Source of the DNA: Micromonospora yangpuensis
GTDB lineage: Bacteria > Actinomycetota > Actinomycetes > Mycobacteriales > Micromonosporaceae
Direction: 5' to 3'
Assembly (NCBI RefSeq): GCF_900091615.1
Contig: NZ_FMIA01000002.1
Coordinates: 5,704,001-5,768,000, forward strand
Length of the DNA: 64,000 nucleotides
Under the pieces are notes generated by a model. It was not told the DNA's origin, searched no databases, and saw only the letters and a program-made list of their open reading frames with translations. The position numbers and the translations under genes were made by a program. Shown here piece by piece: positions 50,335 through 64,000 of this stretch; within the stretch, counting starts at the first letter, position 1; the number at the start of each line of letters is the position of its first letter.

Positions 50335-51840
50335 TTACCTGAGAGCGGTGAGCTCCAGCACCAGTTGGGGAGCCAGGCCGACCAGCACGGCCAGGACCGT
50401 CGCCACCGCCAGCGCGGCCAGCACCGAGGCCGCCGGCCGCCCCGACGACAACCCAGCGTGATCGTCGCCCGAGGCGGTCACAGGAGCCGACGCGGCGGGG
50501 GCGTACAGGGTGGCGGTCAGGCGCAGGTAGTACGCCAGGCCGATCACCGCGTTCAGCGCCACCACCACGGCCAGCGCGGCCGAGCCGCCGGTCAGCAACG
50601 ACCGGACCACGGTCACCTTGGCGAAGAGGCCGGCCAGCCCCGGCGGCAGCCCGGCCAGCCCGACCAACGCCAGCCCGAACGCCGCCGCGACCCACGGATG
50701 CCGGCGGGCGGCACCCCGCAGGTCCCGCACCGTGCCGCCGTCCGCGCCCGCCGGGCGCAGCGCCACCAGCGCCGCGAACGCGCCGAACTCCAACAGCACG
50801 AAGAAGACCGCGTACGCCACCGCTGCCGCGTACGCCACCGCGGCGGCCTCCCCGGTGCGGCCGGTGGTCAGCGCGAGCGCCCCGAGCGGGGCCAGGATGT
50901 AGCCGGCCTGGGCCACCGACGACCAGGCGAGCAGCCGGACCGTCCGGCGTTGGCGCAGCGCCACCAGGTTGCCGACGGTCATCGTCAGCACCGCGAGCAG
51001 AGCCAGCACCGGCCCGGTGACGGTCGCCGGCAGCGCGTACTGGACCACGGCGAGCAGGGCCACCACGCCGCCCAGCTTCGAGGCGGTGGAGAGGTACGCG
51101 GCCACCGGCACCGACGCGCCGTCGTAGGTGGCCGGCGCCCAGGCGTGGAACGGCACCGCGGCCACCTTGAAGGCCAGCCCGAGCACCACCAGCGTCACCG
51201 CGGCGGTGGCCAACGGCAGCTCGGTCAGCTCCGGGCGCTCGGCGAAGACCGCGCCGAGCCGGTCCAGGTGCAGTCCACCGGTGACCGCGTAGAGCAGCGC
51301 CGCGCCGAGCAGGGTGAGCGTGGTGGCCACCACGCTGACCACGAAGAAGGTGACCGCCGCCTCGGCGCTGGCCAGGCTGCCCCGCCGCAGCCCGACCAGG
51401 ACGTAGATCGGCAGGGTGAGCGTCTCCACCGCCACGATCAGGGTGATCAGGTCGCCGGCCGCGCCGAGCACCACCCCGCCGGTCATCGAGGCGGCCAGCA
51501 GGAAGGTGTACTCCCCCGTCGGCGACCGGCCGGCCCGCAGCAGTGGCCCGGAGAGCCCCAGCACACCGAGGGTGAGCAGGGCGAACACCCCGGCCACCAG
51601 GGCCGCCCGGTCGTTCATCACCCAGGAGCAGTCGGTGCCCACGCAGAACGTCCGCCGGGGCTCGCCGACGCCCACCACGACGGCGGCGAGCACCGTGCCG
51701 ACCGCCCCGAGGGCGGCCACCGCCACCGTCACCCGGTCCCGCGACACCAGCAGGTCGGCCAGGAGCACCAGCACCGCCGTACCGGCCGCCAGGTACGCCG
51801 GCAGCAACGCCACGTGGTCGATGCTCTGCACCACACTCAT
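50335..51840 (-). CDS. nuoN: NADH-quinone oxidoreductase subunit N
   Basis: One of the three antiporter-like proton-pumping subunits of complex I, 501 residues with about fourteen membrane helices. Signatures include LTLPIYVLVGLRRGSLASAE, FKVAAVPFHAWAPATYDGAS with the key Lys and Glu region, and VRLLAWSSVAQAGYILAPLG. It starts MSVVQSIDHVALLPAYLAAG behind GGAGGAG and is the last gene of the nuo cluster, 16 bp after nuoM. Confidence 0.97.
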   Translation of the reverse strand: MSVVQSIDHVALLPAYLAAGTAVLVLLADLLVSRDRVTVAVAALGAVGTVLAAVVVGVGEPRRTFCVGTDCSWVMNDRAALVAGVFALLTLGVLGLSGPLLRAGRSPTGEYTFLLAASMTGGVVLGAAGDLITLIVAVETLTLPIYVLVGLRRGSLASAEAAVTFFVVSVVATTLTLLGAALLYAVTGGLHLDRLGAVFAERPELTELPLATAAVTLVVLGLAFKVAAVPFHAWAPATYDGASVPVAAYLSTASKLGGVVALLAVVQYALPATVTGPVLALLAVLTMTVGNLVALRQRRTVRLLAWSSVAQAGYILAPLGALALTTGRTGEAAAVAYAAAVAYAVFFVLLEFGAFAALVALRPAGADGGTVRDLRGAARRHPWVAAAFGLALVGLAGLPPGLAGLFAKVTVVRSLLTGGSAALAVVVALNAVIGLAYYLRLTATLYAPAASAPVTASGDDHAGLSSGRPAASVLAALAVATVLAVLVGLAPQLVLELTALR

Positions 51841-51856
51841 GATCTACTCCTCCACC

Positions 51857-53395
51857 TTATGGTGCGAGCACCTCGACGAGGGCGGTCACCGGGGCGGCGG
51901 CCACGCCGAGGACCAGGGTGGGGGCCAGGCCGATGGCCAGGGCGAGCAGCACCAGCGGCGTCCAGGCGGTCAGTTCCGCACCGGCCAGGCGGGGCTCCAG
52001 CGCACCCACCGCCGGGCTGGGTCGGCCGTGGGTGACCCGGCGCAACAACCGCAGCAGGTACGCCGCGGTCAGCGCCCCGCCGACCGCCGCGAGCACGCCG
52101 AGGGTGATCCAGAACGCCCCACCCCGCTGTACGGCGGCGATCACCGCCAGTGCCTCCCCCCAGAAGCCGGCCAGGCCGGGCAGGCCGAGCGAGGCGACGG
52201 CGGCGAAGCCGAGCAACCCGGCCAGTCGGGGCGCGGCGTCGCGCAGCCCGGACAGCTGCGCCAACGATCCGGTGCCGGTACGGTCCTTGACCGCCCCGGC
52301 CAGGAAGAACAGCAGCGCGGTGAGCACCCCGTGGGCGATGTTGCCGATCAGCGCCGCCTGGATGCCGGTGGCGGTGAGCGTGGCGATCCCGAGCAGCACG
52401 AAGCCCATGTGCCCGACGCTGGAGTACGCGATCAGCCGCTTCAACTCGTCCTGGGCCAGGCAGATCAGGGCCCCGATCAGGATGGCGGCCACCGCCAGCA
52501 CCCCGAGCACCGGGGCGACCTGCCGGGCGCCCTCCGGGGCGACTCCCACCGCGACCCGGATCAGGCCGTACGTGCCCATCTTGAGCAGTACCCCGGCGAG
52601 CACGACGCTGCCGACGGTGGGTGCCTGGGTGTGCGCGTCGGGCAGCCACGAGTGCAGCGGCCAGAGTGGGCTCTTCACCGCGAAGGCCAGCCCGAGCAGG
52701 ATGAACGCGGCCAGCTGGGTGCCCCGGGACAGCCCGTCGCCGCCGGTGAGCGTGACCAGGTCGGCGGTGCCGGCGGCGGTGACCACGAGGTAGACCCCGA
52801 CCAGCAGGAGCACCGAGCCGAAGAGGGTGTAGAGGGCGAACTTGCGACCCGCCGCCCGGGCCGCGTCCCGGGCCGACCGGCCGTCCCCGGTGGCGCTGCC
52901 GCCCCAGCCGACGATGATCGCGTACATCGGCAGCAGGACGACCTCGAAGAAGAGGAAGAAGAGCACCAGGTCCAGGGCGAGGAAGGTGCCCAGGATGCCC
53001 ACCTCGACCACCAGCAACAGCGCCACCAACGCCCGGCCGCTGCCACCGGCCGGCACCTTCCAGACGGTGTACCCGCAGCAGAGCAGGGTGAGCAGGGCGG
53101 TCAGCACCACCAGGGGCCAGGAGATGCCGTCCACGCCGAGGTGGAACCGCAGCTCCAGGCCGGGCACCCAGGGCAGGTCGAGCTGGTGCCAGGGGCGTAC
53201 CGCCGGGGCGTCGGCGGCCCAGGCCGTCCAGGTCCGCTCCCCGGTGGCCAGCAGCACCGCCGCGAGCAGGGTCAGGCCGGCGAAGACCGTACCGACCAGG
53301 CGGGCCGCCCGGTCCCGGGGCCACGCGGCGACCACCACCGCGCCGAGGGCCGGCACCGCCAGGACCGCGACCAGCAGCAACTCCCCGATCCTCAT
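51857..53395 (-). CDS. nuoM: NADH-quinone oxidoreductase subunit M
   Basis: Proton-pumping subunit, 512 residues with about fourteen membrane helices. Signatures are FHLGVDGISWPLVVLTALLT, LFFLFFEVVLLPMYAIIVGW with the conserved Glu, FAVKSPLWPLHSWLPDAHTQ and LKRLIAYSSVGHMGFVLLGI. The ATG follows GAGGAG. A 139-bp very GC-rich spacer (53396-53534) separates it from nuoL; long frames crossing the spacer are not genes. Confidence 0.97.
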   Translation of the reverse strand: MRIGELLLVAVLAVPALGAVVVAAWPRDRAARLVGTVFAGLTLLAAVLLATGERTWTAWAADAPAVRPWHQLDLPWVPGLELRFHLGVDGISWPLVVLTALLTLLCCGYTVWKVPAGGSGRALVALLLVVEVGILGTFLALDLVLFFLFFEVVLLPMYAIIVGWGGSATGDGRSARDAARAAGRKFALYTLFGSVLLLVGVYLVVTAAGTADLVTLTGGDGLSRGTQLAAFILLGLAFAVKSPLWPLHSWLPDAHTQAPTVGSVVLAGVLLKMGTYGLIRVAVGVAPEGARQVAPVLGVLAVAAILIGALICLAQDELKRLIAYSSVGHMGFVLLGIATLTATGIQAALIGNIAHGVLTALLFFLAGAVKDRTGTGSLAQLSGLRDAAPRLAGLLGFAAVASLGLPGLAGFWGEALAVIAAVQRGGAFWITLGVLAAVGGALTAAYLLRLLRRVTHGRPSPAVGALEPRLAGAELTAWTPLVLLALAIGLAPTLVLGVAAAPVTALVEVLAP

Positions 53396-53534
53396 CCGGT
53401 CTCCTCGGCTCGCGACCGGCCGACCCGGCCAGTTGGTCGCCGGCCGGCCCGGCACTGGACCGGACCGCGCCCGGCCGGTCGGCACCGGACCGGCCGGCCC
53501 CGGCCGACCCGGCGCGGTGACGCGTTCGCGGTGG

Positions 53535-55553
53535 TCATGTCAGTCCGCCGATCACGATGGCGGCCAGGCCGAGCAGCAGCGCGCCGGCCAGGACGCCGGC
53601 GGCGGCCCGGGGCAGCGCGGCGCGGTGCAGTTGGGCCAGGCCGCCGCCCAGGCCCCGGGCACCCCGTCCGGTGCCCTCCACCGCGCCGTCGACCACCACC
53701 AGATCGGCGGTACGGGCCAGTCGGGCGAGCGCCCGGACCGGGCGTACCACCAGGGTCTGTTGGAGGTCGTCGAGGCGGAAGCCGGCGGCGAAGAGCGACC
53801 CCAGCGGACCGAGGGCGCGGGCCGGGTCGGCGGCCGGGTCGCCGCGCCAGCCGGCCCAGGCCAGCCCGGCCCCTACCAGCAGGAGCACGGTCGGCAGCAG
53901 CAACGCCGGCCCGAGGTGGACCAGCTCCCCGGCGGAGGCTGAGGCGGAAGCGGAGGTGCCGGCGGCGTCAGCGGTGGCCGGGGTGAACAGCCGGTCGGCG
54001 AAGGCCGGCCAGAACGCGGCCAGCCCGAGCAGCGCGGAGGGCACCGTCAGCAGCAGCACCGGCCAACGCAACACCGCCGGCGGGTCGTGCGGGTGCAGCA
54101 GCGGATCCCGCAGCTCGCCGAAGAAGACCCGCAGCAGCAGCCGGGTGGCGTACCAGGCGGTGACCACCACCCCGAGCAGCCCGGCCAGCCAGACCAGCCA
54201 CGCCACCCAGCCCGGCGCGGGGCCGGTGCCGTCCAGCGCGGCGGTCTGGGCCACCGCGAGCACGCCGTCCTTGCTCCAGAAGCCGGCCAGCGGGGGCACG
54301 CCGGCCAGCGCGCCCAGCCCGACCAGGGTGCACCAGAAGGTCACCGGCATGCTGCGGCGCAGCCCGCCCATCCGGGACATCGACGCGGTGCCCAGCGCGT
54401 GGATCACCACCCCGGCGGCCAGGAACAGCAGCGCCTTGAACGCGGCGTGGGTGAGCAGGTGGAACAGCGCCGCCGGGGGTGAGCCGACGGCGAGGGCTCC
54501 GGTCATGTAGCCGAGCTGGGAGACCGTCGACCAGGCGAGTACCCGCTTGAGGTCGTCCTGGGCGGTGGCCGCGAACGCGCCGAGCAGCAGGGTCACCGAG
54601 GCCATCACGCCGAGCACGACCAGCGCGGTCGGGCTGGCCGCGAAGAGCGGCCAGAGCCGGGTGAGCGCGTACACCCCGGCGGCGACCATGGTGGCGGCGT
54701 GGATCAACGCGGAGATCGGGGTCGGGCCGGCCATCGCGTCCGGCAGCCAGGTGTGCAGCGGGAACTGGGCGCTCTTGCCGGCCACCCCGGCCAGCAGCAG
54801 CAGGCAGGCGGCGGTGAGCGTGGTGGTGCTGTGCGAGTGGGCGAGCACGTCGGCGATCCGGAAACTGCCGGCGCTCACCCCGAGCAGCGCGATGCCGAGC
54901 AGGAAACCGACGTCGCCGACCCGGGTGACCAGGAACGCCTTCATCGCGGCGGCCGGGGCCTCGGGCAGCCGGCGGTCGTGGGCGATGAGCAGGTACGAGC
55001 AGATGCCCATCACCTCCCAGCCGACCAGCAGCATGACCAGGTCCCCGGCGACCACCACGGTCAGCATGGCGGCGGTGAAGAGGCTGATCTGCGCGGCGTA
55101 CGGCGGGTACCGGTGGTCGACCTCGCCGTCGTCGGCGGGCCCCGACCGCAGGTAGCCGACCGAGTAGACCTGCACGGCCAGGGCGACGGCGGCCACCGCC
55201 ACCGCGACCAGCGCGGCGGCACCGTCCAGGCGTACCCCGAGGGTGATCGTCAGGCCGCCCAGCTCCAGCCAGGTGGTGCTGGTCTCGGTCGGGCCGTCCA
55301 GGCCGACCAGCAGGGCGAGAGCGACGGCGAGGGCACCGGCCGCGCCGGCCACCCCCAGCCCGATCGCCACCGGCCGCGCCGGCCCCTCGCCGCGCGCCGC
55401 CGCGCCGCCGGCCGGACCCGGCGACGAGCCAGCCGCGCCGCGTGCAGACCCCGCCGCGCCGGTCGCGACGCGCGACGCGGGCGGCAGGAGCAACCCCGCC
55501 AACCCGGCGACCAGGGGTACGGCCGGCAGCAGCGCCCCGAGCAGTCCGTTCAC
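53535..55553 (-). CDS. nuoL: NADH-quinone oxidoreductase subunit L
   Basis: Distal proton-pumping subunit with the long lateral helix, 672 residues. Signatures are WELVGICSYLL-like (LVGWEVMGICSYLLIAHDRR), FPLHTWLPDAMAGPTPISAL, LKRVLAWSTVSQLGYMTGAL and MSRMGGLRRSMPVTF. It begins at a GTG that overlaps the nuoK stop as GTGA. A Gly/Ala/Pro-rich insertion of about 35 residues sits near residues 25-60, longer than usual. Confidence 0.97.
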   Translation of the reverse strand: MNGLLGALLPAVPLVAGLAGLLLPPASRVATGAAGSARGAAGSSPGPAGGAAARGEGPARPVAIGLGVAGAAGALAVALALLVGLDGPTETSTTWLELGGLTITLGVRLDGAAALVAVAVAAVALAVQVYSVGYLRSGPADDGEVDHRYPPYAAQISLFTAAMLTVVVAGDLVMLLVGWEVMGICSYLLIAHDRRLPEAPAAAMKAFLVTRVGDVGFLLGIALLGVSAGSFRIADVLAHSHSTTTLTAACLLLLAGVAGKSAQFPLHTWLPDAMAGPTPISALIHAATMVAAGVYALTRLWPLFAASPTALVVLGVMASVTLLLGAFAATAQDDLKRVLAWSTVSQLGYMTGALAVGSPPAALFHLLTHAAFKALLFLAAGVVIHALGTASMSRMGGLRRSMPVTFWCTLVGLGALAGVPPLAGFWSKDGVLAVAQTAALDGTGPAPGWVAWLVWLAGLLGVVVTAWYATRLLLRVFFGELRDPLLHPHDPPAVLRWPVLLLTVPSALLGLAAFWPAFADRLFTPATADAAGTSASASASAGELVHLGPALLLPTVLLLVGAGLAWAGWRGDPAADPARALGPLGSLFAAGFRLDDLQQTLVVRPVRALARLARTADLVVVDGAVEGTGRGARGLGGGLAQLHRAALPRAAAGVLAGALLLGLAAIVIGGLT

Positions 55554-55933
55554 CGGTCAGCCTCCCCGTGCGTGCCGGTGCCGCTCGTGGCCGCCTCGGT
55601 CGAGTGTGCGGTGGCCTCCAGCTCAGGGCCCTCGGTCAGCGGCACCTCGTCCACCGCGACGCTGGCCCGCAGCCGGTAGAACTGGAGCACGATGGCCAGC
55701 CCCACCCCGATCTCGGCGGCGGCGAGCACGATCACGAAGAGCGCGAAGACCTGACCGCTCTGCGGCAGCGTGGCCCGGACGGTGGTGTCCGCGGTGATCA
55801 GGACCAGGTTGACCGCGTTCAGCATCAGCTCGACGGCCATCAGCACCAGCACGGCGTTGCGGCGGCGCAGTACGCCGTAGACGCCCAGACCGAACAGGAG
55901 CGCCGCGGTGACGTACGGGATGACCGGCCTCAC
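55550..55933 (-). CDS. nuoK: NADH-quinone oxidoreductase subunit K
   Basis: Three-helix membrane subunit, 127 residues. It has VIPYVTAALLFGLGVYGVLR, LMAVELMLNAVNLVLI with the conserved Glu and VFALFVIVLAAAEIGVGLAI with the second Glu. A hydrophilic tail of about 30 residues, rich in Glu, Thr and Ala, extends the usual 100-residue length. GTG start overlapping nuoJ (GTGA) and stop overlapping nuoL. Confidence 0.96.
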   Translation of the reverse strand: MRPVIPYVTAALLFGLGVYGVLRRRNAVLVLMAVELMLNAVNLVLITADTTVRATLPQSGQVFALFVIVLAAAEIGVGLAIVLQFYRLRASVAVDEVPLTEGPELEATAHSTEAATSGTGTHGEADR

Positions 55934-56439
55934 CGTCGCCGCCCCCGACCGATGTCCGGGCGGGACAGCACGATCGCCCCGATCAGGGCGGACAGCAACA
56001 GCACCGAGAGCACCTCGAAGGGGAGCACCCAGCTGCGGAAGATCTGGTCGCCGAGCCGTTCGGCGGTACCCGCCTCGGGCAGGTCCACGGTCGACCACCG
56101 GTACGCGTCGACCATCAGCACGGTGAGCCCGAGTCCACTGCCGCCGCCGATCAGCGCGGCCGGCCAGCCCGGCCGGTCCAGGTCGTCGGAGGCGCCGATC
56201 GGGGCCCGGGTGAGCATCACCGCGAAGAGCAGCAGCACCACCACCGCGCCGACGTAGATCAGCACCTGCACCCAGGCGACCAGCTCCGCGCCGAGGACCA
56301 GGAAGATCCCGGCCACCGCGCCGAGGCAGACCACCAGGTACAGGCCGGCCCGGACCAGGTGGCTGGTCCCCACCACCAGCGCGCCGGCACCGACGGCCAC
56401 CGCGCCGAGGGCCAGCAGCAGCACGTCCACCCCGGTCAC
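55930..56439 (-). CDS. nuoJ: NADH-quinone oxidoreductase subunit J
   Basis: Membrane subunit with the pi-bulge helix that links quinone chemistry to pumping, 169 residues and five hydrophobic segments. Signatures are [20 protein letters not shown] and [20 protein letters not shown]. The GTG start overlaps the nuoI stop (GTGA). It is coupled to nuoI and nuoK. Confidence 0.96.
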
Positions 56440-57206
56440 GGGGCGGTGCCCTCGTCCGGACCCGGACCCTCCTGACCGGACGTCGCCGGGCGGGCTGGGG
56501 GCGCACCCCGTTCGGATTGCGGGGCCGCGGCGGGCGGCGGGGCGGCCTCGGCTTGCGGAGCGGCGGCCCCGGGCGACGGGGCGGCGGCGGCCGGGCGGGC
56601 TGCGGGCGTACCTCGGGGGGCGGTGGGGCGGGCGGGGGGCGCGGTGGGGGCGGCGGCCTTGCGCGCGGCGGCGGTCTCCTCCTTGGCCGGCTCGCCGTTG
56701 CGGTCGTGCGCGGGCGGCGGTGGCACGGTGGCCATCCACTCGCCCAGGTGGTCCTTGTCGTGCAGCAGGTCCTTGATGTCGTACTCGGCGTACTCGAACT
56801 CGGGTGACCAGTAGAGCGCGTCGAAGGGGCAGACCTCGATGCAGATGCCGCAGTACATGCAGAGCGAGAAGTCGATGTCGAAGCGGTCGAGCACGTTGCG
56901 CTGCCGGGGGCGGGCGGCGCCGGGCACCGCCACCTCCTCCTTGTGCGAGTCGATGTAGATGCACCAGTCCGGACACTCCCGGGCGCAGAGCATGCAGACC
57001 GTGCAGTTCTCCTCGGACAACGCGATCACCCCCCGGGAGCGGGGTGGCAGCTCGGGGGCCACGTCCGGGTACTGCTGGGTGGTCGAGCGGCGGGTCATCG
57101 TCTTGAGGGTGACCGCCAGTCCCTTCGCCAGGCCGGCGCCGGGCAGGCTGCGCTCGCTACGTTCGCCGGGCAGGCTGCGCTCACTGCGGTCACCGTGCTC
57201 GCTCAT
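56436..57206 (-). CDS. nuoI: NADH-quinone oxidoreductase subunit I (2x 4Fe-4S)
   Basis: Carries iron-sulfur clusters N6a and N6b between the NuoG arm and the quinone site. The 256-residue protein has two ferredoxin motifs, [12 protein letters not shown] and [12 protein letters not shown], and the block [17 protein letters not shown]. Two features are odd: an N-terminal duplicated [13 protein letters not shown] repeat (27-bp DNA repeat) and a Pro/Ala-rich tail of about 95 residues after the conserved domain. nuoH should precede it but does not; nuoI opens the nuoI-N block and needs its own promoter. The ATG at 57206 is favoured over 57215. Confidence 0.95.
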
Positions 57207-57325
57207 GTCGACCATCCTGCCCTGTGTGCCCGGCGCGCGCGACCACCACCCGACTCTTCGCGGCGGTACCGTACCGGTGGGGAGAACGACGCACCGGACG
57301 TGACCGCTGTGAGGAGTGACCGTCG

Positions 57326-57898
57326 ATGACCGCCGCGCTGTCCAGCGAGCCGCCCGAGGGCGGGTGGACGACGGACGACCTCGACGCCCTGCCCGACGAC
57401 GGGCGTCGCCGTGAACTGCTCGATGGAGTGCTGCTCGTGTCCCCCTCCCCCACCGCCGCCCACCAGACCATCGCCATGCGACTCGGCGTCGCGCTGGAGT
57501 CGGAGAGCCCCGACGACTACCAGGTGACCCAGGGGGTCGAGGTACGGATCAACCGTTCCCGCTGCTTCATCCCGGACGTCCTGGTCACCACGGCGACGGC
57601 GGCCCAGCGTCGCCCGGCCCGGTACGAGCCGCACGAGGTGGTGCTCGCCGTGGAGATCGTGTCACCGAGCACCCGCTCGATCGACCGGGTGCTGAAGCCC
57701 ACCCTCTACGCCCAGGCCGGCATCCCGTTCTACTGGCGGATCGAGACCGAGAGCGGCGAGCTGGTGGTGCACACGCACCGGCTCGACCCGGTGGCCGAGG
57801 TCTACGCCGAAACCGGCCGGTGGACGAAGTTCGTCGACACCGGGGAGCCGTTCCCGGTGAACCTGTCCATCGCCCGGCTCACCCCCCGGTACCTCTGA
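57326..57898 (+). CDS. Uma2-family (DUF820) PD-(D/E)XK nuclease-fold protein
   Basis: 190-residue protein with the Uma2 layout: [40 protein letters not shown], the acidic strand [10 protein letters not shown] and [20 protein letters not shown], which match the D...ExV...K arrangement of the restriction-endonuclease fold. Uma2 proteins are abundant in actinobacteria and cyanobacteria; their biological role is not settled, and mobility-linked functions are suspected. A GAGGAG lies ten bases before the ATG. It is divergent from nuoI and is the first gene of the block that splits nuo. Confidence 0.88.
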
Positions 57899-57958
57899 GC
57901 CCACTGCCGGCGCCCCGGCGGTGGGCGGCCAAGGTCTCAGCGGCGGGCGGCCAAGGTC

Positions 57959-58549
57959 TCAGGGGCGGGCGGCCAGCCGGGTGAGGTGGGTGTCGATCTC
58001 GGCGCGGGCCTCGGCCGGGCTGAGCGCGGCGTAGAGCAGCCGTAGCGTCACCCCGTCCAGCACGGTGGCCAGCTCCCCGGCGGCCTGCGGCACGTCGACG
58101 TCGGCGGCGATGCTGCCGTCGGCGCGGGCCAGGTCGATCAGGCGGGCGAGGTTGGCGCGTAGCTCGACGGCGTTCTCCCGCATGATGGCCGCGATCTGCT
58201 CGTCGATCAGCGCCTCGGCGGTCAGCATCAGCCAGACCCGCGACTCGAAGATCCGCTCCTCGTCCAGCGGGACGAGCTGGACCACGGCCAGCCGCAGGGT
58301 CTCCAGCGCGCTCGGCCCGGTGGGCAGCGCCCGGGCCCGCCGGACCACCCGGTCGACCAGGTACGCCATGGCGGCCCGGACCATCAGCTCCCGGGTCGGC
58401 AGGTAGTGCTGGGCCGTCGCCAGCGGCATCCCCGCCTCGCCCGCGACGGCCCGGACGGTGGTGCCGGCCACGCCGGTACGGCTCAGCACGGCGCAGGCGG
58501 CCGCCCCGAGTCGGCTCCGACGCTCCTCGTGGTCCACGACCTTCGGCAT
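57959..58549 (-). CDS. TetR-family transcriptional regulator
   Basis: 196-residue regulator. The N-terminal HTH (about residues 10-55) reads RLGAAACAVLSRTGVAGTTV, then VAGEAGMPLATAQHYLPTRE. The rest is the helical ligand-binding domain (RLAVVQLVPLDEERIFESRV). A conserved hydrolase-like C-terminal arrangement resembles TetR_C_6-type regulators, but the ligand is unknown. It is divergent from the CPBP protease gene; a perfect 28-bp operator lies between the two starts, so it very probably represses that gene and perhaps itself. Confidence 0.9.
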   Translation of the reverse strand: MPKVVDHEERRSRLGAAACAVLSRTGVAGTTVRAVAGEAGMPLATAQHYLPTRELMVRAAMAYLVDRVVRRARALPTGPSALETLRLAVVQLVPLDEERIFESRVWLMLTAEALIDEQIAAIMRENAVELRANLARLIDLARADGSIAADVDVPQAAGELATVLDGVTLRLLYAALSPAEARAEIDTHLTRLAARP

Positions 58550-58569
58550 GTCATGATCGTACGTGATCG

Positions 58570-58597
58570 GTCGCTTGACCGATATAGGTCAAGCGAC
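58570..58597. promoter_or_regulatory. TetR operator: perfect 11-bp inverted repeat
   Basis: GTCGCTTGACC at 58570-58580 and its complement at 58587-58597 flank a 6-bp GATATA centre. It lies in the 61-bp gap between the divergent TetR and CPBP genes and covers the -35 and spacer of the CPBP promoter. Confidence 0.85.
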
Positions 58598-58603
58598 TAA
58601 TCT
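58575..58603 (+). promoter_or_regulatory. Promoter of the CPBP protease gene, overlapping the operator
   Basis: TTGACC (-35, 58575-58580) and TAATCT (-10, 58598-58603) are 17 bp apart. The -10 ends seven bases before the ATG at 58611, so the transcript should begin at or next to the start codon and be leaderless; no Shine-Dalgarno is present, which agrees. Confidence 0.75.
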
Positions 58604-58610
58604 CCTCGCC

Positions 58611-59336
58611 ATGACCGCCGACCTTGCCCCGAAAAGCCCCGCTACGACCCCCGGCTTCGCCCGGTTCACCTGGCCCGATCTGGCGATCGTGCTCGCGGTC
58701 GGCTTCGGTCTGGCCAACGCCCCGGTGGCGAACTTCCTCGCCCGGGGCCCGGCCGCCCTGGGCGCCTCCGAACTGCTCGCCAGCATCCTCGCCTGGCTGC
58801 TGATCAACGGGGTCCAACTGCTGGTCGGCCTCGCCGTGACGTACCACCGCTTCGGCGAGATCCGCCGGCCGCTGCTGCTGACCCGGCCCACCGCCGGCAA
58901 CCTGCGCGCCGCGACCTGGTGGGGGCTGGCCAAGGCCGGGCTCACCCTCGGCCTGCTCCTGGCACTGCCGGCGGCGCTCACCGCGGACGGCGGCGGCGAG
59001 GGCGGCTACCCGCCCGGCAGCCTGCTCGCCCAGTTCACCTTCGCCTTCTTCTTCGGCGCCATCGCCTCCCCGATCTACGAGGAGGTGCTCTACCGGGGCG
59101 TCTTCTTCCAGGGCCTGGCCGCCCGGCTCCCGGCGCTGGCCGCGATCGGGATCTCCGCCGGCTTCTTCGCGGTGATGCACCTGCCCCGGGTCTTCAACAC
59201 CATCAGCGCGCTCTTCGCCGGCCTGCTCTTCGCCTGGCTGCTGCACCGCTACCGCAACCTCTGGGTGCCGATCCTCGCCCACACGGTGAGCAACGGGACC
59301 CTCATCGTGCTCGCCTTCGCCGCCCAGGTCGCCTGA
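58611..59336 (+). CDS. CPBP-family intramembrane glutamic protease
   Basis: 241-residue membrane protein with about six to eight hydrophobic segments. The CPBP (Abi/Rce1-type) motifs are intact: EE at 157-158 with Arg162 (EEVLYRG), then FFAVMHLPR with the second-motif His, and LAHTVSNG with the third-motif His and Asn. Such proteases act within the membrane; in bacteria some are linked to bacteriocin immunity or surface-protein processing. Expression is probably controlled by the divergent TetR regulator. The start is chosen from promoter spacing, since there is no ribosome-binding site. Confidence 0.88.
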   Translation: MTADLAPKSPATTPGFARFTWPDLAIVLAVGFGLANAPVANFLARGPAALGASELLASILAWLLINGVQLLVGLAVTYHRFGEIRRPLLLTRPTAGNLRAATWWGLAKAGLTLGLLLALPAALTADGGGEGGYPPGSLLAQFTFAFFFGAIASPIYEEVLYRGVFFQGLAARLPALAAIGISAGFFAVMHLPRVFNTISALFAGLLFAWLLHRYRNLWVPILAHTVSNGTLIVLAFAAQVA

Positions 59337-59360
59337 GCCCCGGCCTTCCCGCCGTCCGCT

Positions 59361-59469
59361 GCCCGTACCGCGCGGTGAACCCTGGCCTGAGCGGCCCGAG
59401 CCTGCAGCACCGCGCGGCCTGAGCCCGTACCGCGCGGCCTGAGCCCGCGCCGCGGCCTGAGCGGGCCGG
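59361..59469. repeat. Imperfect 20-bp GC tandem repeats
   Basis: Units on the pattern GAGCCCGTACCGCGCGGCCT recur; the clearest are 59401-59420, 59421-59440 and 59441-59458 (shortened). They lie between the CPBP gene and the reductase gene. No coding or regulatory meaning is evident. Confidence 0.65.
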
Positions 59470-59584
59470 CCGGTGCCGGGTCGGCGGGGGCGTGGCCGAG
59501 GTCGCGGTGGGCGTTGCCGGGTCGCTGGGTAAGGGATCGGACATGATGGGACCGACTGGACCTGCAACGGTGGAGGACGACGCA

Positions 59585-60628
59585 ATGGCGGAGAGCAACG
59601 GCGCGGCGACGCAGACCGGCGGCAAGTACGTCGAGCCGGGCGGCGAGTTCACCCGAGACCAGCGGTACATCGCCACCCGGATCACCGCCGACGGGCGGGA
59701 CGGGTACCCGGTGGAGCCCGACCGGTACCGGCTGGTGGTCAGCCGGGCCTGCCCCTGGGCCAACCGCATGATCATCGTACGGCGGTTGCTCGGCCTGGAG
59801 GAGGCGCTGCCGATGGCGGTGGCCGGGCCGACCCACGACGCCCGGAGCTGGACCTTCGACCTGGACCCGGACGGGCGGGACCCGGTGCTCGGCATCGAGC
59901 GGCTGGGCGAGGCGTTCTACGCCCGGTTCCCCGACTACGACCGGGGGATCACCGTGCCGGCCATCGTCGACGTGCCGACCGGGCAGGTGGTCACCAACGA
60001 CTACGCGCAGATGACCCTGGACCTCTCCACCGAGTGGACCGCGTACCACCGCCAGGGCGCGCCGCAGCTCTACCCGGAGCACCTGCGGGCCGAGATCGAC
60101 GAGGTAAACAAGGTGGTCTTCGCCGACGTCAACAACGGCGTGTACCGGTGCGGGTTCGCCGGCAGCCAGGAGGCGTACGAGAAGGCGTACCGGCGGCTCT
60201 TCGAGCGGCTGGACTGGCTCAGCGACCGACTCACCGAGCAGCGGTACCTGGTCGGCGACACCATCACCGAGGCCGACGTCCGGCTCTTCACCACGCTGGT
60301 CCGCTTCGATCCGGTCTACCACGGCCACTTCAAGTGCAACCGGCAGAAGCTGAGCGAGATGCCGGTGCTGTGGGCGTACGCGCGGGACCTCTTCGCCACC
60401 CCCGGCTTCGGCGACACCATCGACTTCGACCACATCAAGCGGCACTACTACGAGGTGCACCGGGACATCAACCCGACCGGGATCGTGCCGCTCGGCCCCG
60501 ACCTGGTCAACTGGCTCAGCCCGCACGGGCGCGAGGCGCTCGGCGGCCGGCCCTTCGGCGACGGCACTCCCCCGCCGCCACCCGCCCCGGCCGAGCAGGT
60601 CCCCCCCGCACACACCCCACTCGCCTGA
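59585..60628 (+). CDS. Glutathionyl-hydroquinone reductase-like protein (Xi-class GST)
   Basis: 347-residue protein of the YqjG/ECM4 family, which reduces glutathionyl- (in actinobacteria perhaps mycothiol-) conjugated hydroquinones. The redox Cys56 lies in RACPWANRMII. Family blocks TVPAIVDVPTGQVVTNDYAQ, VNNGVYRCGFAGSQEAYEKA and DVRLFTTLVRFDPVYHGHFK follow. A Pro-rich tail of about 25 residues ends the protein. The ATG at 59585 follows a GGAGG. Because actinobacteria generally lack glutathione, the true thiol partner is an inference. Confidence 0.9.
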   Translation: MAESNGAATQTGGKYVEPGGEFTRDQRYIATRITADGRDGYPVEPDRYRLVVSRACPWANRMIIVRRLLGLEEALPMAVAGPTHDARSWTFDLDPDGRDPVLGIERLGEAFYARFPDYDRGITVPAIVDVPTGQVVTNDYAQMTLDLSTEWTAYHRQGAPQLYPEHLRAEIDEVNKVVFADVNNGVYRCGFAGSQEAYEKAYRRLFERLDWLSDRLTEQRYLVGDTITEADVRLFTTLVRFDPVYHGHFKCNRQKLSEMPVLWAYARDLFATPGFGDTIDFDHIKRHYYEVHRDINPTGIVPLGPDLVNWLSPHGREALGGRPFGDGTPPPPPAPAEQVPPAHTPLA

Positions 60629-60642
60629 CCCCCCACCCCGAA

Positions 60643-60699
60643 TGCAAGGAAGGGCCCCTTCCTAACGCTTTTTGTATAGGAAGGGGCCCTTCCTATACA
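60643..60699. repeat. Palindromic repeat, copy 1
   Basis: Nested palindrome. Outer arms 60647-60664 and 60677-60694 are exact 18-bp complements, and each arm is itself nearly palindromic (GGAAGGG/CCCTTCC). The loop is 12 bp. It begins 15 bp after the reductase stop. Two further members lie at 62129-62183 and 63342-63395. It could act as a terminator. Confidence 0.88.
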
Positions 60700-60873
60700 C
60701 GCGGCACCGCCAGCCGGGGCGACCACTGAGAGCCATCACACATTCACCTTGCGTGTTCAATAGTTAACACGGCCGTCAATCGAACCTGGTCGACTTAGGG
60801 GGTCCGGCCCGGTGACCCACCGCCGGAGTCGGATCGGTCTGTCCATTGTGGACTCCCTGAGGAGGATCGAGCC

Positions 60874-62133
60874 TTGCGCAAGCTGGGTAGCAGAACCGCA
60901 CGTCTGGGCGTACTCGCCGGGTTTCTCACCGGCGTACTCGTCGCCACCACCGCTCCCGCGAACGCGGTGCCGGGCACCGCGGAGCCGGGTCGGGCCACGC
61001 CCGCCCCGCTGCTGGCCGCCGGTGCGCCGGCCGCGCCGGACCGGTACGTCGTGGTGCTCTCCGAGAAGCCCGCCGACACCGCCCGATCCAGCCAGGCCGC
61101 CCGGTCGATCACGGTGGCCGAGGCCGCCGGCGGCACGGTACTCAACCGCTACACCCAGGTCCTCGACGGGTACGCCGCCCACCTGCCCCCGGCCGCTCTC
61201 GCAGCGGTCCGCAACGACCCGGCGGTGGCGTACGTCGAGCCGGACACGGTCGTCCGGGGTGGTCCGGTCAACCGGGTGTCGACCCCCCAGGCGGTGCAGC
61301 CGAACCCGCCGTCCTGGGGGCTGGACCGCATCGACCAGCACTACCTGCCGCTGAACAACAGCTTCGGGTACACCACCACCGGCAGCGGCGTCACCGCCTA
61401 CGTCTTCGACTCCGGCATCCGCGCCACCCACGTCGACTTCGGCACCCGAGCCGCCGGGGCGTACGACGCGGTCGGTGACGGCAACGGCACCAACGACTGC
61501 CACGGGCACGGTACGCACGTCGCCGGCACCATCGGCGGCACCACGTACGGGGTGGCCAAGGCGGTGACGATCCGGGCGGTCCGGGTCCTGCAGTGCGACA
61601 ACTCCGGCTGGACCACCGACCTCATCGAAGGCCTCGACTGGGTCGCCGCCAACCACGCCGCGGTCTCGGTGGCCAACTTCAGCCTCCAGGGCTACGGCAC
61701 CGCCCCGAGCGTGGCCGTCGAGAACCTGATCGACTCGGGCGTCTACCCGGTCTTCATCGCCAACAACTTCAACACCGACGCCTGCACCAACGGCCCCCGG
61801 TCGACGCGCGGCATCACCGTGGCGGCGACCGACAGCACCGACAACCGGGCCTCGTTCTCCAGCTACGGCAGCTGCGTCGACGTCTTCGCCCCCGGGGTGG
61901 ACATCACCTCCGCCGGCATCGCCTCGAACACCGCGGTCGCCGCCGGCTGGGGCGGCACCTCGATGGCCGCCCCGCATGTCACCGGCTGGCTGGCCCGCTA
62001 CCGGCAGTCGAACCCGACGGCCACGCTGGCGACGGCCAAGTCCGCCCTGATCGCCGCCGCGACCACCGGCGTGGTGATCAACCCGGGCCCCGGCTCCCCC
62101 AACCGCCTCCTCTACGCCGCCCCTAGCTTGTAA
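60874..62133 (+). CDS. Secreted subtilisin-like serine protease (S8 family)
   Basis: 419-residue exported protease. TTG start behind GAGGAGG. Residues 1-31 are a signal peptide (MRKLGSRTARLGVLAGFLTG, ending PANA). Residues about 50-125 are an I9-type propeptide (DRYVVVLSEKP). The catalytic domain has Asp179 (YVFDSGI), His212 (HGTHVAG) and Ser363 (GGTSMAAPHV). The oxyanion region reads VFIANNFNTDAC. There is no C-terminal binding domain. Its TAA lies inside palindromic repeat copy 2, so the last residues (APSL) may have been altered when the repeat arrived. Confidence 0.95.
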   Translation: MRKLGSRTARLGVLAGFLTGVLVATTAPANAVPGTAEPGRATPAPLLAAGAPAAPDRYVVVLSEKPADTARSSQAARSITVAEAAGGTVLNRYTQVLDGYAAHLPPAALAAVRNDPAVAYVEPDTVVRGGPVNRVSTPQAVQPNPPSWGLDRIDQHYLPLNNSFGYTTTGSGVTAYVFDSGIRATHVDFGTRAAGAYDAVGDGNGTNDCHGHGTHVAGTIGGTTYGVAKAVTIRAVRVLQCDNSGWTTDLIEGLDWVAANHAAVSVANFSLQGYGTAPSVAVENLIDSGVYPVFIANNFNTDACTNGPRSTRGITVAATDSTDNRASFSSYGSCVDVFAPGVDITSAGIASNTAVAAGWGGTSMAAPHVTGWLARYRQSNPTATLATAKSALIAAATTGVVINPGPGSPNRLLYAAPSL

Positions 62134-62183
62134 GGAAGGGCCCCTGTTAACGCTTTCGGTATAGAAGGGGACCCTTCTAACGC
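62129..62183. repeat. Palindromic repeat, copy 2 (contains the protease stop codon)
   Basis: Begins TGTAAGGAAGGGCCCC; the TAA is the stop of the S8 protease. The core TGTTAACGCTTTCGGTATAG matches copy 3 closely. The insertion sequence begins four bases beyond its right edge. Confidence 0.85.
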
Positions 62184-62186
62184 CTA

Positions 62187-63207
62187 GGCCGTGTTTCGTA
62201 GGGCGGCGTTGTTGGGGCGTGGCGGTGGTCGCTAATGGGAGAGGTCTCCGGTAGTTGGTTCAGCGACCAAGCTGGAACTTCACACCGGAGACCTCGTGCC
62301 GAGCGTAGCGGCAGCGAGGCGACATGACCTGACCGACGTGCAGTGGGCGGTCCTCGAGCCGTTGCTGCCTGCGGGAACGGGTCATGCTCGGCCGCGCAGA
62401 TGGACCATGAGACTGATCATCGACGGGATCCGGTGGCGGGTCCGGACCGGATCACCATGGCGGGACGTGCCCGCGTCCTACCCGCCGTGGCAGACCTTGT
62501 ACCGGTGGTTCCGGCGCTGGCAGCGCGACGGCGTCTGGGCGCAGATCCTCACCTCGTTGCAGGCCCTGGCGGACGCGGCGGGGTTGATCGGCTGGACGGT
62601 GAGCGTGGACTCGACCATCAGCCGCGCCCACCAGCACGCCGATGGGGCCCGCCGTGACGGGCAGGCGCAGAAGGAGCCACCCGGTGGTGTGCAGACCGAG
62701 CCGGCAGGTCACGGCCTCGGCTGGTCAAGGGGCGGCTGGACCACCAAGACCCATCTGGCCTGCGAGCAGGGCCGCAAACTGATGGCCATGGTGGTGACCG
62801 CCGGACAACACGGCGACAGCCCACAGTTCATCCCCGTACTGGCCAAACTACGTGTCCCCCGCGCCGGTGGCGGCCGGCCCCGGACCCGCCCCGACATGGT
62901 GCTGGCCGACAAGGCGTACACGTCCAAAGCCAACCGAGCCCACCTACGATCCCGGGGCATCCGAGCGTGCATCCCGAGCAAGGCCGACCAGGACGCCCAC
63001 CGCAAGGCCAAAGGGTCCAAAGGCGGACGCCCACCCGCCTTCGACCCCGAGGTCTACCGCCTGCGTCACGCCGTGGAGTGCGGCATCAACCAGCTCAAAC
63101 ACCACCGCGCCATGGCCACCAGATACGACAAACTCGCCGTGCGCTACGAAGCCACCCTCACCATCGCCGCCATCAACCAATGGCTCCGCGCACTACGAAA
63201 CACGGCC
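62187..63207 (+). mobile_element. IS5-type insertion sequence, complete
   Basis: About 1.02 kb, bounded by inverted repeats. With the flanking TA included the match is 17 bp perfect: TAGGCCGTGTTTCGTAG at 62185-62201 and its complement at 63193-63209. The flanking TA on both sides looks like a 2-bp target duplication. It contains one transposase gene. The intact ends and uninterrupted frame suggest a recent, possibly active, insertion. Confidence 0.93.
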
Positions 63208-63210
63208 TAA
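62296..63210 (+). CDS. IS5-family DDE transposase
   Basis: 304-residue single-frame transposase with the N-terminal DUF4096-type domain ([20 protein letters not shown]) and the RNase-H-like DDE core: Asp105 in [11 protein letters not shown], Asp205 in [13 protein letters not shown] and Glu261 in [18 protein letters not shown] start with GGAG five bases upstream. The stop TAA straddles the element edge: the right terminal repeat encodes the last codons, and the stop comes from the flanking TA plus one host base. Confidence 0.95.
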
Positions 63211-63341
63211 CGGGCACCGCCTCAGCACACGGCACCGCCTCAGCGCACGGCACGGTGTGGCCTGGCCGAGGGAAGCCACCTCGGTCAGGCCACCCGCCCG
63301 CTGCCATCCGCCCGCTGCCGGTCGCGCGACCCGCTGCCGGC

Positions 63342-63395
63342 GTGAGAAAGGTTCCCCTCTATACCGGAAGCGTTAACAGGGGGCCCTTCCTTACA
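63342..63395. repeat. Palindromic repeat, copy 3 (contains the nuoH stop codon)
   Basis: Inverted relative to copy 2. Read on the minus strand it begins TGTAAGGAAGGGCCCCC, and its TAA is the stop codon of nuoH. The core TGTTAACGCTTCCGGTATAG differs from copy 2 at one base. Confidence 0.85.
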
Positions 63396-64000
63396 GGGCG
63401 AGGCGGACGGCGGCGGTGAGGACGAGCTGGGCGAGGGCGGCCGGCACCAGCACCAGCCAGCAGAGCCGCTGCAACTGGTCCTCACGCAGCCGCGGGTACG
63501 ACACCCGCAGCCAGATGATCACGAAGGAGACGGCGAAGACCTTCAGCAGCGTCCAGAGCCAGCCGAGCTGGGCGTCGGCGAACGGCCCCTGCCAGCCACC
63601 GAGGAAGAGCACCGTGGTCAACGCGGCGATCACCACGATCCCGACGTACTCGGCGAGCAGGAAGAAGGCGAACCGCAGCCCGCTGTACTCGGTCATGTAG
63701 CCGAAGACCAGCTCGGAGTCGGCTACCGGCATGTCGAACGGGGGACGCCGGATCTCGGCCAGCCCGGCGACGAAGAACACGATCATCGCGGGGGCCTGCC
63801 AGAGCAGCCACCAGGGCTGCCACGCCTCGACGATCCCGGAGAGACTCAACGTGCCGGCCGCCATCGCCACCGACGCGGCGGCCAGCACCAGGGGCAGCTC
63901 GTAGCCGAGCAGCTGCGCCGCCCCCCGCAACCCGCCCAGCAGGCTGTACTTGTTGGCCGAGGCCCAGGCGGACATCAACACCGCGAGCACGCCGATGCCC
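63391..64000 (-). CDS. nuoH: NADH-quinone oxidoreductase subunit H (3' part)
   Basis: The C-terminal about 202 residues of NuoH, running off the right edge. It forms part of the quinone chamber of complex I. Signatures are SANKYSLLGGLRGAAQLLGY, the quinone-site loop FVAGLAEIRRPPFDMPVADS with its acidic residues, VFGYMTEYSGLRFAFFLLAE and WLRVSYPRLREDQLQRL. The stop TAA lies inside palindromic repeat copy 3. Its normal downstream neighbour nuoI is about 6.2 kb away. Confidence 0.97.
   Translation of the reverse strand, partial: GIGVLAVLMSAWASANKYSLLGGLRGAAQLLGYELPLVLAAASVAMAAGTLSLSGIVEAWQPWWLLWQAPAMIVFFVAGLAEIRRPPFDMPVADSELVFGYMTEYSGLRFAFFLLAEYVGIVVIAALTTVLFLGGWQGPFADAQLGWLWTLLKVFAVSFVIIWLRVSYPRLREDQLQRLCWLVLVPAALAQLVLTAAVRLAL

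Follow-up and report, generated by a model that had tools for sequence, protein, structure and literature searches.

In most actinobacteria the nuoA-N genes of respiratory complex I stand together, which raises the question of how a nuo cluster of Micromonospora yangpuensis came to be opened between nuoH and nuoI. The DNA analyzed (the window) is a stretch of 64,000 nucleotides, positions 5,704,001 to 5,768,000 of contig NZ_FMIA01000002.1. Its nuoI-N genes retain their order and strand, and nuoH lies on the same strand beyond a gap of 6,184 bp (57207-63390), which extends from the nuoI start (ATG 57206) to the nuoH stop codon (63391-63393). Positions are given in window numbering; C2:n denotes a coordinate on the genome contig, and Lnnn and Gnnn denote loci and genomes of relatives. 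The gap contains six genes, whose identities in an earlier, sequence-only reading were supported by Pfam: five are on the plus strand, opposing the nuo genes, and a TetR-family gene alone runs in the nuo direction.

That reading took the split cluster for the main complex I operon, allowing that a second complete nuo cluster might make the split copy secondary. Such a cluster was found at C2:505222-521800: the nuo genes of the window belong to a second set, nuo2, and the main complex I is intact elsewhere. We propose, with a probability of about 0.8, that nuo2 is maintained in five loci, that nuoI2-nuoN2 form a block with its own promoter, that the nuoH2-nuoI2 junction opens repeatedly, and that these separate units would still serve one complex, with a NuoD2 methylated by a MidA-like enzyme.

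A second complex I set in five places

When the genome that contains the window (6.52 Mb, two contigs) was searched by family, two NuoH genes were found. The canonical nuoA-N cluster was complete and contiguous, with Pfam matches on A-D, E, F, G, H and J-N. The nuo2 genes comprise all eleven subunits of a complex I without NuoE, NuoF and NuoG, namely A2, B2, C2, D2 and H2-N2.

The first of the five places holds I2-N2, all on the minus strand: nuoN2 (50335..51840; antiporter-like subunit, Pfam Proton_antipo_M, 34% identity to the organism's own NuoN1), nuoM2 (51857..53485, although the true start may be further in; Proton_antipo_M, 35% to NuoM1), nuoL2 (53535..55553; NCBIfam NDH_I_L above cut-off, 41% to NuoL1), nuoK2 (55550..55924; NCBIfam NuoK, 48% to NuoK1), nuoJ2 (55930..56439; NCBIfam NuoJ models below their cut-offs, 37% to NuoJ1 over 51 residues) and nuoI2 (56436..57206; Fer4 domains, NuoI models below their cut-offs, start placed by alignment). 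The second place holds nuoH2 (63391..64000, minus strand, Pfam NADHdh), which runs on past the window to about C2:5768353, and nuoC2 directly upstream of it (C2:5768743-5769102). nuoB2 lies about 7 kb further on (C2:5776571), beyond genes for, among others, a Zn-dehydrogenase, a sigma factor and a DUF2252 protein. nuoA2 is found at C2:1069610, and nuoD2 at C2:6105123, about 336 kb from nuoH2.

The comparison drew on 80 named nuoI2 loci, the best 80 of 569, from Micromonosporaceae, Streptosporangiales and a small number of metagenome genomes. nuoD2 was found in none of these 80 loci, fetched up to 10 kb on either side of nuoI2. No nuoG was found upstream of nuoH2, the genes beyond nuoC2 being unrelated, and no nuoE, nuoF or nuoG lay between C2 and H2, which were less than 600 nt apart in 66/66 loci; the search did not extend to second copies in other parts of the genome. 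The open reading frame (ORF) used as the 'GDH' query in the search of relatives shares sequence with nuoC2 on the opposite strand; the short extra pieces it returned are therefore probably nuoC2 read backwards.

The Nuo2 proteins could instead swap into the canonical enzyme, forming hybrid complexes and no complex of their own, a possibility raised in excerpts of two studies for Streptomyces nuo2 (PMC9239103) and for antiporter subunits (PMC3765725). This is unlikely here: the second set is full, NuoC2 and NuoD2 included, and its sequences are far from those of the first (34-48% identity in the best BLASTP alignment of each of the eleven subunit pairs), also at the N2/quinone site of NuoD. These features are in better agreement with a separate Nuo2 complex.

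The nuoH2-nuoI2 junction among relatives

Fifty-nine of the fetched loci are Micromonosporaceae-like; the 21 others comprise 20 from Streptosporangiales and one metagenome genome. A junction was scored as open when the gap was at least 600 nt, with gene ends extrapolated from tblastn matches; a locus in which either gene was missing from the right strand did not count towards that junction. The H2-I2 junction was open in 55/71 loci, and the 16 loci below 600 nt all had gaps of 215 nt or less. Opening was also seen at A2-B2 (6/23), B2-C2 (32/57) and I2-J2 (6/79). The other five of the eight remaining junctions were never open: C2-H2 (0/66), J2-K2 (0/77), K2-L2 (0/76), L2-M2 (0/72) and M2-N2 (0/73). 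nuoA2 lay within the fetched stretch in 23/80 loci, 3/59 of the Micromonosporaceae-like loci and 20/21 of the others.

The state of the junction was mapped on a FastTree phylogeny of 78 rows, from which L037, L072 and L077 were omitted because they had too few of the tree's genes; 28 of its 75 inner branches were weak, and 8/78 rows had no measurable H2-I2 gap. The 70 rows of known state, window included, were 55 split and 15 contiguous, and required at least 13 changes of state. Within the Micromonospora clade all 24 such rows were split (the window and 23 relatives); outside it, 31 were split and 15 contiguous. Shuffling of the labels gave a mean of 13.7 changes, with 187/500 shuffles at or below the observed 13; therefore, the split state clusters on the tree no more than expected by chance. 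On this comparison of gene order, the H2-I2 break is old and recurrent in the relatives.

Two single loci are recorded here. Micromonospora pattaloongensis (L058), whose H2 and I2 are contiguous, is placed by the Nuo2 tree outside the Micromonospora clade. In Virgisporangium (L067, 10001-20435) nuoH2 is on the opposite strand, about 3.5 kb beyond nuoN2, another route to an H2/I2 break.

A promoter-like block ahead of nuoI2

The sequence-only reading had argued that nuoI-N would need a promoter within the roughly 120 bp before nuoI, and a conserved promoter-like block, apparently of the leaderless type, was found there (57204..57242, minus strand). In the window it reads TCGCGC-N17-CAGGAT-N7-ATG. 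A footprint over 22 sequences, window included, showed strong conservation of the bases directly before nuoI2 and none further upstream; 9/30 relatives, in which the anchor motif was missed, were omitted. CAGGAT, 7 bases before the start, resembles a leaderless -10 element. Of two ATG codons, the second (57206) is the likely nuoI2 start, because in L023 and L027 the upstream one is not in the reading frame. The nuoI2 N-terminus (57150-57206) varies in length among relatives and has a GAGCGAGCGCAGCGAGC-like sequence.

A regular expression for this block matched at nuoI2 in 50/59 Micromonosporaceae-like loci and at two other sites in 2.98 Mb of both-strand sequence from the 80 loci. The 21 other loci have a different block in the same place, a strict second pattern matching in 11 of them. 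L060, L079 and L072, with an H2-I2 overlap of some 57-60 nt (extrapolated ends), show neither block. The -10/ATG part was found in 9/15 loci with contiguous H2-I2; being present where the genes still adjoin, the block is probably older than the breaks.

Retention of the nuo2 genes

A cluster broken at several points, with nuoA2 and nuoD2 far off and cargo genes decaying in the gap, might be a decaying paralogue, its scattering a step on the way out. The state of the genes makes this very unlikely. All eleven subunits are kept; NuoB2 and NuoI2 still have their cluster cysteines, and NuoL2, NuoM2 and NuoN2 their invariant Glu and Lys. The median ratio of nonsynonymous to synonymous differences (pN/pS) against relatives was well below 1 for H2 (0.14), I2 (0.18), D2 (0.18), M2 (0.33), N2 (0.38) and L2 (0.43); among non-nuo genes it was 0.27 for the glutathionyl-hydroquinone reductase (GHR)-like gene and 0.41 for the Uma2 gene of the gap. 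Stop codons interrupted 2/27 aligned stretches of I2, 1/25 of M2 and 1/13 of Uma2, and none of H2 (23 stretches), L2 (27), N2 (24), D2 (30) or GHR (27).

By eye, D2 was found in 77/81 family genomes (it is not listed for G002, G005, G013 and G038), and H2 in at least 73/81. G013, G038 and the incomplete G005 gave matches at canonical-copy strength only. These results point to a scattered set that is nonetheless retained.

NuoD2 and the adjacent methyltransferase gene

NuoD2 has an arginine equivalent to bovine Arg85, within the motif HRGAEK in 30/30 family D2 loci. The organism's own NuoD1 reads HTGIEK, with Thr at this site; Thr is also found in Thermus NuoD and in 8e9g (Mycolicibacterium). 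In 58/58 distinct D2 loci listed, Trp replaces the quinone tyrosine and the histidine is kept, both residues presumably having roles at the quinone site of NuoD.

A methyltransferase gene adjoins nuoD2 in 27/30 family loci. Its product was assigned to Pfam PF02636 and to the MidA/COG1565 fold by a structure model (mean predicted local distance difference test score, pLDDT, 72.8). The MidA-NuoD2 partnership to which this arrangement points was unexpected. We suggest tentatively, at somewhat less than even odds, that Nuo2 is a distinct actinobacterial complex I class, in which the NuoD2 arginine would be methylated by a dedicated MidA homologue and the quinone pocket carries Trp.

Gene content of the gap

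Gap genes were identified with Pfam, the start codons of the CPBP and glutathione S-transferase (GST)-fold genes being our choice. From nuoI2 onwards they are a Uma2-family gene (57326..57898, plus); the TetR-family regulator (57959..58549, minus; TetR_C_6 above cut-off); a CPBP/Rce1-like intramembrane protease (58611..59336, plus); a GST-fold, GHR-like protein (59585..60628, plus), the nearest PDB chains of which are named glutathione S-transferase, YqjG and glutathionyl hydroquinone reductase; a subtilisin-type protease (60874..62133, plus; Pfam S8 and I9); and an IS5-group insertion sequence (62185..63209, plus) with 21-nt terminal inverted repeats, 95% complementary, and a transposase ORF (62296..63210, plus; Pfam, NF033580). 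Between the TetR and CPBP genes, an imperfect inverted repeat with 19-nt arms, 84% complementary (58565..58602), is probably a TetR operator, judged from its sequence and position.

The same genes were sought in the gaps of 27 Micromonospora-clade loci, four of them cut before H2 (L037 was omitted). The GST/GHR gene was present in 27/27 and Uma2 traces in 17/27, 12 of these near full length, which marks both as old cargo. CPBP fragments occurred in two loci (L015 and L029), a 47-residue TetR fragment in one (M. sonchi, L029), the subtilase in one (L023) and IS5 in none. The window therefore retains, as whole copies, genes that occur as remnants in relatives. Three other genomic copies of the IS5 element are 99-100% identical, so its insertion is recent.

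Other gaps have other contents: in 14 Streptosporangiales-type loci a cluster of gap genes represented in the test by a Ser/Thr protein kinase, in 10 Micromonosporaceae loci, clade members among them, SnoaL (one representative tested), in three Salinispora loci EamA (one tested), in L033 and L047 histidine-kinase-type genes and in L069 a glucosaminidase. By this comparison the cargo looks lineage-specific and, within the window, only the IS5 copy looks recent.

Six genes foreign to complex I between nuoH and nuoI, a recent IS5 copy included, could suggest a 6.2 kb accessory block newly inserted into the main complex I operon, as the sequence-only reading had supposed. This is extremely improbable given the complete nuoA-N elsewhere, the split in 23/23 clade relatives with a measurable gap, the GST/GHR gene in every clade locus and the decayed TetR and CPBP pieces in the gaps of two relatives. 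For a sole complex I, recent insertion is rejected on account of the intact nuoA-N, the clade-wide split and the shared or decayed cargo. As for an old arrangement, the comparison of junctions bears it out for the split, shared clade-wide, but not for the cargo, which is only partly common (GST/GHR in all clade loci versus IS5 in none).

We also give little chance to a functional link, in which the hydroquinone reductase-like protein would act on the quinone of the complex; no evidence of such a link emerged, none having been tested directly. Its gene is conserved throughout the clade, with low pN/pS and no stops; however, no fetched locus from outside the clade showed it, it lies on the opposite strand, Salinispora has another gene between it and H2, and other gaps are represented by a protein kinase, SnoaL, EamA and histidine kinases. 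Lineage-specific passengers at a recurrently opened junction agree better with these contents.

A palindromic repeat of about 54 bp starting AAGGAAGGGCCCC occurs at 60646-60700, 62132-62185 and 63340-63392 of the window, and in L100 (7417), L010 (6012) and L105 (2873). About 40 genomic sites were counted by eye, with 84 matches listed, a number that includes IS copies and counts one site in either orientation (40/512 candidates were scored). In the window the subtilase and nuoH2 both end at the TAA that opens a copy of the repeat, and the repeat may be a combined stop and terminator. No Rfam family reached the gathering threshold in 56000-64000, and a repeat scan of the window gave nothing usable.

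Proposed model

The comparison shows nuoI2-N2 as a block, its inner junctions opening rarely or never and its own conserved promoter-like block standing at the start, and H2-I2 as a site of repeated opening and of uptake of lineage-specific passenger genes. In the model that we favor, the nuoI2 promoter would be older than the break, insertion ahead of it would cost little, and for this reason the break would be tolerated. The five pieces would be separate transcription units that still yield one membrane complex, in which electrons would pass from a low-potential donor, most likely ferredoxin docking on NuoI2, to menaquinone, with proton pumping. During assembly, the MidA-like methyltransferase would methylate the NuoD2 arginine.

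Several observations weigh against parts of this model. The strict pattern ahead of nuoI2 was missing in 9/59 Micromonosporaceae-like loci, three of them split with a measured gap (L047, L054 and L069), and the strict second pattern in 10/21 other loci; the patterns were composed after inspection of the same sequences. A scan of 56900-63600 for the sigma-70 consensus yielded zero promoter-like sites, which counts against a textbook sigma-70 promoter, the block being known from comparison alone. The methyltransferase gene was not seen beside D2 in 3/30 family loci and 19/28 further loci of the class, some flanks being cut, and it is less constrained (pN/pS 0.50; a stop in 2/27 aligned stretches). 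E. coli has the same arginine unmodified, so the arginine need not mean methylation. Because NuoD2 has Trp in place of the quinone Tyr of other NuoD proteins, menaquinone reduction is not assured. Finally, D2 (E 1e-90) was found in 0/10 listed genomes of another family of the same order.

The model corrects the tempting reading of a broken main complex I. It describes a large membrane enzyme built from five loci, whose cluster breaks where a promoter probably already stood, and this would give a simple rule as to the operon breaks that can survive. If the tentative reading of Nuo2 as a distinct class is true, actinobacteria have a complex I with a mitochondrial-type methyl mark beside a canonical enzyme unable to carry the mark, and the acceptor of Nuo2, or the potential at which it runs, may be different. 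What methylation of Arg85 does when complex I is assembled could be studied in a bacterium of which one NuoD has the arginine and the other lacks it.

Comparison with known systems

The putative NuoD2 methyltransferase resembles NDUFAF7/MidA, which methylates Arg85 of NDUFS2 in mitochondria, in its MidA/COG1565 fold, its PF02636 domain and the target arginine in NuoD2. It differs in that identity to the solved members of the family is about 16-24% and in that the canonical NuoD of the host has Thr. The proteobacterial origin of MidA methylation is reportedly the subject of one paper, as the titles of a reference and of PDB entries indicate. Among the open-licence literature matches listed, none dealt with MidA and NuoD in actinobacteria, with a nuoH/nuoI split or with a promoter-marked break.

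A nuo2 set with a detached nuoD2 is already known from Streptomyces (SCO4599-SCO4608), and the excerpts describing it agree with the present set in a second complex I without NuoE, NuoF and NuoG and with nuoD2 apart (PMC3765725, PMC8388888, PMC9239103); the methyltransferase link and the promoter-marked break were not found in the literature searched. In Streptomyces, A2, B2 and H2-N2 are described as forming one contiguous operon, apparently with a single transcript (PMC3765725, PMC8388888), whereas here the set lies in five pieces. One excerpt calls the function unclear and the set devoid of NuoC, D, E, F, G and L (PMC9239103). NuoC2 is present here (and in L010, 2353-3204), and none is listed for Streptomyces, whose set is known to us by description only; a Streptomyces nuoC2 may have been overlooked in the literature.

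The 11-subunit complex I and its unidentified electron donor are discussed in PMC11238625, in the part available. The nuoABCDHIJKLMN genes of Desulfitobacterium hafniense described there encode the same eleven subunits, a set without the NADH module. In D. hafniense they form one operon, whereas in Micromonospora they occupy five loci and share their host with a complete 14-subunit enzyme.
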